In this document: positions 8,374 through 41,410 of the stretch, piece by piece
Layout of the letters: each line of letters begins with the position of its first letter
Position numbering within the stretch: the stretch's first letter is position 1
Assembly (NCBI GenBank): GCA_902617625.1
Contig: CACMXJ010000006.1
Span: forward strand, 1-64,000
Direction of reading: 5' to 3'
Source of the DNA: an uncultured Pelagibacteraceae bacterium
Lineage (GTDB): Bacteria; Pseudomonadota; Alphaproteobacteria; Pelagibacterales; Pelagibacteraceae
Length of the DNA: 64,000 nt
Notes under the pieces: generated by a model
Told to the model about the DNA's origin: nothing
The model's input: only the letters and a program-made list of their open reading frames with translations
Databases searched by the model: none
Translations under genes and position numbers: made by a program

Positions 8374-10200
8374 GTGGAAAGAATAATTACAAAATCATTC
8401 GCTAGATTAATGGGCCGTGGAGTTCACCGTGGTTTCATAACTCATGAGGAATTAAGTAAATCGCTTGGAAAAAGAAATCTTTCAGATGAAAACTTAACAC
8501 AGGCCTTCATCCATATTTTGGATGAGGGAATTGTACTGGTAGAAAAAAAATCAGATTATAAAGTTTTAAGAAAAAAAGAAAATTCATCCAAGGAAGAAGG
8601 AAAAACAATAGAGAAAAGTGACGACCCAATAAGGATGTATCTGAGAGAAATGGGTGGTGTTGAATTGCTTTCAAGAGAGGGAGAGATAGCAATTGCAAAA
8701 AGAATAGAAGCAGGAAAAGATGTAATGTTAATTGCTCTTTCACAAAGTCCAATAACAGCTCAACAATTTTTCGATTGGGATGAAAAATTACAGAAGGATG
8801 AAATTCTTGTAAGAGAAATAATTGATATCGATACAAATTACATGGAGGATGAAAATACTGGTCCAAGCGCAAAACAAAAGAATGCTGGAGAAGATGAAAA
8901 AGACGATAATTCTAGTGATGATAGTGATGATGACTTTAACCCAACTCTTGCAGCAATGGAAACTGAAATAAAACCGAAAGTTTTAAAAACAGTTCATTTA
9001 CTTACCAAAGAATATCGTAAATTGATTAAGTACCAGAAAGAAAAACTTGAGTGTGTTTTAAATTCTCAAACTTTTTCGTCATCAAAAGAAAAAGGTTATG
9101 AGAAGATAGTGAGTGGTATTTTAGAAAGTATAAAATCTCTTCAATTATCACCGTCGGTATTAGAAGAGCTTGTACAAAAACATTACATAGAAAATAAAAA
9201 AATAATATCTTTAGAGGGAAATCTTTTGAGATTAGCGATGGATCAAAAAATACCAAGAAATGAATTTATTAAATTTTATATTGGAAATGAAATAAATCCA
9301 AATCTAAAAAAATTTTTAGATACCAATTCTTTATGGAGGCAATTTTTTAGCAAAAATAAAGATGAGTTTAAAAATATAAGAGTAAGATTAATTGAGATTA
9401 GTAATAAGTTAGGTATGTCTGTAACTGACTTTAAAAAATTGGTTAGTAGAGTTCAAAAAGGTGAAAAGGAGTCAAGAATTGCAAAAAAAGAGATGGTAGA
9501 AGCAAATCTTAGATTAGTTATTTCAATTGCAAAAAAATATACTAATAGGGGTCTTCAATTTTTAGATCTTATTCAAGAGGGAAATATTGGATTAATGAAA
9601 GCTGTAGATAAATTTGAATACAGAAGAGGATATAAGTTTTCAACTTATGCTACGTGGTGGATAAGACAAGCGATAACAAGATCTATTGCCGATCAAGCAA
9701 GGACAATACGTATTCCAGTCCATATGATTGAAACTATTAACAAGATCGTAAGAACACAGAGATTAATACTTAGTGAGTTTGGAAGAGAAGCTACCCCAGA
9801 GGAATTAGCGAAAAAGTTAAGAATGCCACTTGATAAAGTAAGAAAAGTGTTAAAAATTTCAAAAGAACCAGTTTCTCTTGAAAAACCAGTTGGTGACGAG
9901 GAAGATAGTAGTTTGGGTGATTTTATTGAAGATACAAAAGCATTAGCTCCATTAGAACAGGCGATCAAATCAAATTTAGGAGAAGCGACTACAAAAATAT
10001 TATCTACTTTAACTCCAAGGGAAGAAAGAGTTTTGAGAATGAGGTTTGGTGTTGGAATGAATACAGACCACACTTTGGAGGAAGTTGGACTTCAATTTTC
10101 AGTAACTCGAGAAAGAATTCGGCAAATAGAAGCTAAAGCTTTAAGAAAATTGAAACATCCAAGCAGATCCAAACAACTTAAAAGCTTTTTGGAAAGTTAA
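8374..10200 (+). CDS. rpoD: RNA polymerase sigma factor RpoD (GTG start)
   Basis: [61 protein letters not shown]; region 4 [11 protein letters not shown]...[22 protein letters not shown]. Confidence 0.98.
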
Positions 10201-10203
10201 TTT

Positions 10204-10278
10204 GGGCCGTTAGCTCAATAGTAGAGTACTGCATTGACATTGCAGGGGTAGTTGGAGCGTAACCAACACGGCCCACCA
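10204..10278 (+). tRNA. tRNA-Val (anticodon GAC), with atypical D- and T-loops
   Basis: Cloverleaf: GGGCCGT/ACGGCCC acceptor, GCTC-AATAGTA-GAGT D arm, CTGCA-TTGACAT-TGCAG anticodon arm, GTTGG-AGCGTAA-CCAAC T arm, encoded ACCA. Confidence 0.88.
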
Positions 10279-10332: not shown

Positions 10333-10409
10333 GGGCCTGTAGCTCAGTTGGTTAGAGCAGTACACTCATAATGTATTGGTCCCAGGTTCGAGTCCTGGCG
10401 GGCCCACCA
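10333..10409 (+). tRNA. tRNA with CAT anticodon (elongator Met or Ile2)
   Basis: GGGCCTG/CGGGCCC acceptor, D-loop with GG, anticodon loop CTCATAA, canonical T arm CCAGG-TTCGAGT-CCTGG, encoded CCA. Confidence 0.93.
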
Positions 10410-12652: not shown

Positions 12653-13006
12653 AGCCAGATAAACGACTTATCGCTTTAAGAAATTAAAGAGGAAAGTCCG
12701 GGCTCCGCAAGGATACAGTGCCAGGTAATACCTGGCGGGGGCAACCCTAGGGATAGTGCCACAGAAAATAAACCGCCATAACATGGCAAGGGTGAAAAGG
12801 TGTGGTAAGAGCACACCGGTTATATTGGTAACAATGAACGCTGGAAAACCCCACTGGGAGCAAGACTAAGTAGAGGTGACATTGTTGAAAAACTAAAAGC
12901 CATCCTTGGCTAGTCACCTGGGTTAGTCGCTTGAGTTTGGAAGTGATTTCAAACCTAGAGAAATGATAGGTTTAAATGACAGAACCCGGCTTATAGTTTA
13001 TCTGGC
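12653..13006 (+). ncRNA. rnpB: RNase P RNA (bacterial class A); ends approximate
   Basis: Terminal pairing AGCCAGATAAAC/GTTTATCTGGC; GAGGAAAGTCCGGGCTCC, CACCGGTTATATTGGTAACAATGAACGCTGG, GACAGAACCCGGCTTATAG. Confidence 0.95.
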
Positions 13007-13084
13007 AGACTTTTCTAAATTTAACCATTAACAATTTATAAATAAATACTCTAATTTGCTTATCTAAGCCTTTAATTGTATCTA

Positions 13085-40732: not shown

Positions 40733-41104
40733 ATGACAAATTTTGAAAAAGTAGGTACTTTTATGAAAACTTTTGGTCAAGACGTAAAACAGAGTTCCTC
40801 ATTTAGCACTGATAAGATTAATGAATTAAGAGTAAGTCTTATTAAAGAAGAACTTGATGAGCTAATAGAGGCAATGAACAAAAAAGATTTAGTCGAAGTA
40901 GCTGATGCATTAACAGATATTCTTTACGTAACATATGGAGCAGGACATGCGTTCGGTATAAATCTCGATAAATGCTTTGAAGAAGTTCAGAATTCAAATA
41001 TGAGCAAATTAGATAATAATGGAAAACCTATTTATAATGATAAGGGTAAAGTAATGAAGGGTCCAAATTATTTTAAGCCAGATTTAAGTAAGTTTATAAA
41101 ATAG
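40733..41104 (+). CDS. MazG-like / phosphoribosyl-ATP pyrophosphohydrolase-like NTP pyrophosphatase
   Basis: Start ATG 40733 with SD AGGAG; LIKEELDELIEAMNKKDLVEVADALTDILYVTYGAGHAFGINLDKCFEEVQNSNMSKL. Confidence 0.85.
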   Translation: MTNFEKVGTFMKTFGQDVKQSSSFSTDKINELRVSLIKEELDELIEAMNKKDLVEVADALTDILYVTYGAGHAFGINLDKCFEEVQNSNMSKLDNNGKPIYNDKGKVMKGPNYFKPDLSKFIK

Positions 41105-41106
41105 TA

Positions 41107-41350
41107 AAAGGGGCGTTCTGTTGCCAGGTGCCCCGAACCCCGTTTACTTAATTAACTAAGTTAATTAAGCAGCAAGTGCGTAACTTTCGTTAGCAATTAT
41201 AAATTAGCCCTTTACGGAGGAACAATTCCGAACGAAAGAATAGCCTTTAGTCACTCGTCGAATCTAGTTCACCCCCATAAGTTGTAAATGGTGGAGGTGG
41301 TGGGTACTGCCCCCACGTCCGCAATGGTTATTACGAAATTCGTTTATCGT
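41107..41350 (-). ncRNA. ssrA: Permuted two-piece tmRNA gene (acceptor piece 5', 12-nt intervening segment, coding piece 3'); outer ends approximate
   Basis: Minus strand: T arm GTGGG-GGCAGTA-CCCAC, CACCTCC-ACCA (41289-41316), spacer 41277-41288, then GGGGGTG...GATTCGACGAG (from 41276). Acceptor GGGGGTG pairs CACCTCC. Tag ORF 41165-41194 encodes ANESYALAA-stop. Confidence 0.93.
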
Positions 41351-41374
41351 CATAGTTGGAAATCCAACTTTATT

Positions 41375-41402
41375 AATATAAAAGGAATTGCTAGAGATTC
41401 AA
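41375..41402 (-). promoter_or_regulatory. Putative sigma-70 promoter of ssrA
   Basis: Minus strand TTGAAT (41402-41397), 16-nt spacer, TATATT (41380-41375), pointing toward ssrA. Confidence 0.55.
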
Positions 41403-41410
41403 TAACAATC

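Follow-up and report, generated by a model that had tools for sequence, protein, structure and literature searches.

Coupled substitutions in the elbow of tRNA-Val(GAC) in SAR11 bacteria

The tRNA-Val(GAC) locus

SAR11 bacteria are among the most abundant bacterial groups of the ocean, and a Pelagibacter (SAR11) genome is the source of the DNA studied here, a stretch of 64,000 nucleotides ("the window"); among the matches listed, the records it matched are Pelagibacterales, nearly all of them labelled Pelagibacteraceae. The features at the locus are as follows (coordinates are those of the window):

8374–10200, + strand: rpoD (NCBIfam RpoD, 778 bits)
10204–10278, + strand: tRNA-Val(GAC) gene with encoded CCA (ARAGORN; RF00005, 53.6 bits)
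10217–10223, + strand: D-loop AATAGTA, that is A14 A15 T16 A18 G19 T20 A21, with A15 at 10218, A18 at 10220 and G19 at 10221 (sequence)
10236–10238, + strand: anticodon GAC, which reads GUU/GUC (ARAGORN)
10250, + strand: A48, the non-standard partner of A15 in the Levitt pair (sequence)
10256–10262, + strand: T-loop AGCGTAA, that is A54 G55 C56 G57 T58 A59 A60 (sequence)
10333–10409, + strand: tRNA(CAT) with a canonical elbow (ARAGORN; RF00005, 72.7 bits)

Elsewhere the window carries a class A RNase P RNA (12655–13009) and, on the minus strand, a permuted alphaproteobacterial tmRNA with the tag ANESYALAA (41074–41406; ARAGORN and two Rfam families).

The tRNA-Val(GAC) gene is 75 nt long with its CCA at 10276–10278, and all of its stems are paired, with a single wobble (G10-U25) in the D-stem. 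The gathering score of RF00005, the Rfam tRNA family, is 29 bits, so at 53.6 bits the gene is a member of that family. It retains the G19-C56 pair of the canonical elbow, with A18/G55 in the place of G18/U55 and A54/T58 in the place of U54/A58. A further departure, absent from the preliminary description of this DNA, is the non-standard Levitt pair A15/A48. That description gave the bases and coordinates of both loops exactly, and its perfect stems (apart from the one wobble), encoded CCA and canonical elbow in the neighbouring CAT tRNA are all borne out by the sequence, by ARAGORN and by the Infernal-type scoring that it had proposed. It had also supposed that a second, canonical tRNA-Val(GAC), with the present copy unexpressed, would speak against its reading; the parent assembly (1.03 Mb, 92.6% complete) gives one match and contains no second copy. 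The tRNA-Val(TAC) of the same genome has a canonical elbow.

The rpoD stop codon is only 3 nt upstream of tRNA-Val(GAC), and tRNA(CAT) starts 54 nt downstream of it; from the 3-nt spacing, co-transcription of rpoD and tRNA-Val(GAC) is likely. The two genes adjoin one another in most loci of the same genus (g1). In several other genera tRNA-Val(GAC) occupies a different conserved site (loci L110, L116 and L056, compared with ~314 kb of the g1 genome G003), which points to an apparent relocation of the gene.

A lone 56-nt 3' fragment of tRNA-Val(GAC) is present in another genome, G051 (C1:397210–397265; L292 ~9210–9266). It is 100% identical to nucleotides 20–75 of the gene, includes the altered loop and the CCA, and lies beside glycosyltransferase-like ORFs; no integrase was evident, by eye, among the ORFs within ~10 kb. 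The fragment is perhaps the remnant of an integrated element. Since tRNA genes are phage attachment sites, a changed T-arm could have been selected simply as an escape from integrases, the altered tRNA being otherwise neutral. A fragment of the kind left by integration or transfer, and a gene that stands beside rpoD in its own genus and elsewhere in others, would suit such pressure from mobile elements, but the fragment itself has the altered loop, no integrase is evident near it, and escape from integrases leaves the coupled change at D-loop position 18 and the changes in tRNA-Phe and tRNA-Thr (below) unexplained. We consider this origin very improbable.

Distribution and covariation of the altered elbow

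The 75-nt gene is found, 100% identical, in ~20 further species of the family sample. The altered form was searched for with a pattern that runs from the anticodon to the T-arm (TTGACAT-N13-15-GGAGCRTWACC); it matched 236 of the 398 genomes of the order, while the reversed pattern, used as control, had 0 matches. By table count the matches comprise ~231 of the 271 genomes of g1, 3 genomes of g12 and 2 of g4, with none among the 54 genomes of the outgroup family f2. The canonical pattern was found in 60 genomes of the order, mainly in other genera, and no genome with both patterns was seen among the 398. Many single-cell genomes also carry the altered form (contig scan, among the matches listed), and the ~150 tRNA-Val(GAC) genes of non-SAR11 Alphaproteobacteria in the class sample are all canonical among the matches listed. 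In G132 and ~28 other g1 genomes, one of them 97% complete, no Val(GAC) gene matched any of the three patterns; these genomes have either other variants of tRNA-Val(GAC) or truly lack it, with Val(TAC) reading all of the valine codons.

An RF00005 score below that of the neighbouring tRNA might raise the suspicion of a mistake in sequencing or assembly, or of a pseudogene in decay. The same tRNA is, however, identical in many independent assemblies and in single-cell genomes, and with zero matches to the control pattern it is therefore neither a chance find nor an assembly error; its stems are fully compensated, and it is the sole Val(GAC) copy in its genome. With 236 of 398 genomes carrying the pattern we reject both error and decay, whose combined probability we regard as negligible. 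The preliminary description had held that canonical close relatives would betray such an error. About 10 g1 genomes are in fact literally canonical, but these are alternative natural alleles and do not point to a sequencing error.

The 247 tRNA-Val(GAC) loci that were collected (some genomes having been fetched more than once) reduce to 47 distinct SAR11 sequences. Positions 18/55 of these are G/T in 29 and A/G in 18, and are never mixed; positions 54/58 are T/A in 30 and A/T in 17; and 19/56 is G/C in all 47. Relative to the canonical relatives, then, the altered form has G18/U55 replaced by A18/G55, U54/A58 by A54/U58 and Y60 by A60, with G19-C56 and R57 kept. In 16 distinct altered sequences 100% of the stem cells are paired and both partners have changed in 12 of the 21 pairs (in the T-stem, 50-64 and 51-63 vary with compensation), whereas positions 15, 18, 19, 54, 55, 56, 58 and 60 are invariant. 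Compensated stems around a constant elbow are characteristic of a structural RNA in use. One sequence, from G287 (L152), is unlike all the others and is intermediate: it has A18 and the T-loop TGCAATC, that is, A18/G55 with the normal U54/A58.

These observations supply the covariation of 18/55 and 54/58 that the preliminary description had proposed to score, and its view that the elbow shows coordinated rewiring rather than decay is supported by the constant elbow, the covarying stems, the coupling of 18/55 in both Val and Phe (below), the invariant G19-C56 and the intermediate of G287. On the rpoD tree at least 6 changes of the Val elbow state fall within the genus, and starred branches force 5 of them; g1 and g12 share identical alleles. 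SAR11 has been reported to recombine widely (title of PMC12374537), so some of the state changes may be whole-allele swaps, and they are not counted here as independent mutations; the coupling counts are in any case inflated by the relatedness of the sequences. There is accordingly an appreciable, though minority, chance that the 18/55 coupling goes back mainly to a single old double change per tRNA, spread by transfer or recombination of whole alleles, rather than to coupled mutations that recurred under structural constraint; the scatter of states on the tree and the shared alleles are what such a history would leave. Against it, at least two unrelated tRNAs (Val and Phe) made the same double change, the G287 intermediate differs from every other sequence, and there are close pairs with a common anticodon arm that differ at position 18 and in the T-loop (L153 of G341 and the main form; L150 of G365 and L145 of G010).

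Two further altered tRNAs and the truB slot

The T-loop fits TTCRANY in 23 of the 26 tRNAs found in the parent genome. The altered elbow had been thought specific to one tRNA, and this does not hold, as the same genome contains two more unusual tRNAs:

C1:60298–60369 (L018), − strand: tRNA-Phe(GAA), the only Phe tRNA found; D-loop AGGAGTA, T-loop TGCGAAT
C1:64493–64563 (L027), + strand: tRNA-Thr(GGT); T-loop GTCAGTA, with G54, G58 and A60

tRNA-Phe(GAA) has A18/G55, the same swap as in Val(GAC). Over 70 genomes its positions 18/55 are G18/U55 in 53 and A18/G55 in 17, with no mixed case, and all 17 of the A18/G55 genes are in the Pelagibacteraceae genera g1, g2 and g4 (both statements among the matches listed). 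The Val and Phe states are independent of one another; an altered Val accompanies a canonical Phe in G010, G026 and G040, and the reverse is true of G106. At L027, L278–L284, L293 and L294, tRNA-Thr(GGT) has the GTCAGTA loop, with normal G18 G19 and compensated T-stems, in six g1 genomes and TTCRATT in other genomes. ARAGORN missed tRNA-Thr(GGT) in G303 and G341, where the genes are plainly present.

Pseudouridine 55 is made by TruB, and the TruB family TIGR00431 was not found in the parent genome (a 92.6% complete assembly), while all 14 control genomes match it. Its usual slot is between rbfA and rpsO, and the following loci show its two states:

L371:13108–13734: slot closed (parent genome)
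L300:13452–14081: slot closed (G003)
L377:13570–14161: slot closed (G024)
L339:1396–2289: intact truB in the slot (G009, genus g9)
L360:8109–8984: intact truB in the slot (G040, genus g12)

The complete genome G003 reads nusA-infB-rbfA-rpsO-pnp, with 12 nt from the rbfA stop to the rpsO start. Five g1 genomes (the parent genome G000, G003, G017, G026 and G218) have a closed slot, and so does G024 of g2, where 25 nt separate the homology hits. The truB genes of G009 and G040 score 197 and 211 bits with TIGR00431 (cut-off 151) and have the motif GHxGTLDPxAxG. Thus at least g1 and g2 have lost truB from this position; a copy relocated elsewhere is excluded for the parent assembly only. Given this loss, U55 is probably not pseudouridylated in the truB-less lineages. 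The preliminary description had TruB losing its target in tRNA-Val(GAC); position 55 is indeed G and not U, but the genome has no TruB to be deprived of it and the slot is closed. With A54, tRNA-Val(GAC) also offers no m5U54 substrate to TrmA/TrmFO.

Where truB data exist for a genus, the A18/G55 form of Phe turns up in those without the gene (g1, and two genomes of g2, neither of them G024); in g9 and g12, which have truB, every Phe seen is canonical. The correspondence is imperfect in both directions: G040 has an intact truB with the altered Val elbow, and G026 has the slot without truB and a canonical Phe. The first of these rules out truB loss as the sole cause of the Val switch, and the two together make it at most a permissive background. 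We suggest tentatively that truB loss in part of SAR11 freed the G18-Psi55 contact, that A18-G55 then arose repeatedly in unrelated tRNAs (Val and Phe) and that 54/58 was rebuilt in Val and Thr, all by natural steps with translation kept.

Function of the altered tRNA and comparison with known systems

Almost every bacterial elongator tRNA is taken to have the 18-55 and 54-58 contacts and also Psi55. In the canonical elbow, residue 18 is stacked between 57 and 58 and touches 55, U54-A58 closes the T-loop, and G19-C56 makes up the outer face recognised by RNase P, the ribosome and other readers (PMC4810234, PMC7912444); rapid translocation depends on the 18-55 pair, as Pan et al. (2006), a reference of PMC4810234, state in their title. 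Hundreds of genomes share one unvarying set of altered Val elbow positions, whose 18/55 half recurs in tRNA-Phe, and we consider it probable, judging from the sequences, that tRNA-Val(GAC) of SAR11 is functional and competent in translation, its elbow having been rewired by coupled substitutions around a conserved G19-C56.

Structurally, A18 would still be stacked between 57 and 58, with G55 as its inner contact. A54/U58, together with A60, would close the T-loop by a non-standard pair of another geometry; A54-U58 is not isosteric with U54-A58, and the geometry we give here is a guess. The outer G19-C56 face would be preserved for RNase P, the ribosome and the other elbow readers, and with that face unchanged the tRNA should still decode GUU/GUC. 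The state of G287 and of tRNA-Phe suggests that A18/G55 came first and the changes at 54, 58 and 60 afterwards. Selection on U55 may have become weaker once truB was lost, and Phe is the most plausible case of this.

The tRNA might instead be charged with valine, be kept from translation and serve some other aminoacyl-tRNA-dependent reaction, like certain tRNA-Gly species of Staphylococcus, leaving Val(TAC) to decode all of the valine codons. A canonical Val(TAC) is present in the genome, and there is a precedent for an altered elbow in a tRNA-Gly that does not serve translation. But GTT and GTC make up 425 of the 723 valine codons (59%) in 30 ORFs of the window, G19-C56 is kept in every sequence, and canonical and altered Val alleles replace each other in close relatives. 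Furthermore, the same A18/G55 is carried by Phe(GAA), the one Phe tRNA found; translation must therefore tolerate the pair, and this speaks against a role wholly outside translation. We give this alternative very little credence.

A very abundant bacterial group has dropped truB in some of its lineages and carries coupled pair replacements in up to three tRNAs per genome. Canonical, intermediate and altered elbows coexist in close relatives, which makes it testable there which of the elbow contacts translation needs and what purpose the Psi55 enzyme serves. There is a practical side as well: programs that look for tRNAs by a TTCRANY loop can overlook genes of this kind, as ARAGORN did with the two tRNA-Thr(GGT) genes mentioned above. 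A literature search, which had most subscription journals outside its reach, found no report of A18/G55 tRNAs or of elbow changes in SAR11; of the papers listed under SAR11, Pelagibacter and TruB, a single one contained TruB, and its subject is mitochondrial genes. The main text of a paper on SAR11 tRNA signatures does not mention the T-loop or D-loop (PMC3937112). The novelty of the SAR11 elbow rewiring is therefore provisional.

With the canonical bacterial elongator elbow (G18-Psi55, G19-C56, T54-A58), SAR11 tRNA-Val(GAC) shares the cloverleaf, the 7-nt T-loop, G53-C61, G19-C56, a purine at 57 and a purine at 18; it differs in A18/G55, A54/U58, A60 and A15/A48, and in having no modifiable U at 54 or 55. 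The eukaryotic initiator tRNA-Met resembles it in having A instead of U at position 54 (PMC7912444). The initiator, on the other hand, keeps G18, U55 and A58 (as an A54-A58 pair), whereas SAR11 tRNA-Val(GAC), an elongator, has A18, G55 and U58; the gene in the window, with A54 beside T58 and G55, is thus not initiator-like in its elbow. A60 is also found in the eukaryotic initiator, as in the SAR11 tRNA.

The non-translational tRNA-Gly of Staphylococcus offers another likeness, namely an altered elbow in an extra isoacceptor. These isoacceptors serve peptidoglycan synthesis (reviewed in PMC4810233). Unlike them, SAR11 tRNA-Val(GAC) keeps G19-C56, its 18/55 pair is present also in the sole Phe tRNA, and the demand for its codons is high; membership in this class is disfavoured, indirectly, by the A18/G55 of Phe. 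Suppressor tRNAs with altered contacts between the D- and T-loops have reportedly been selected in the Steinberg laboratory, and are said to show that non-standard elbows can in principle support translation. Those were products of artificial selection in E. coli, whereas the SAR11 tRNA-Val(GAC) is a natural tRNA, fixed in the genome.
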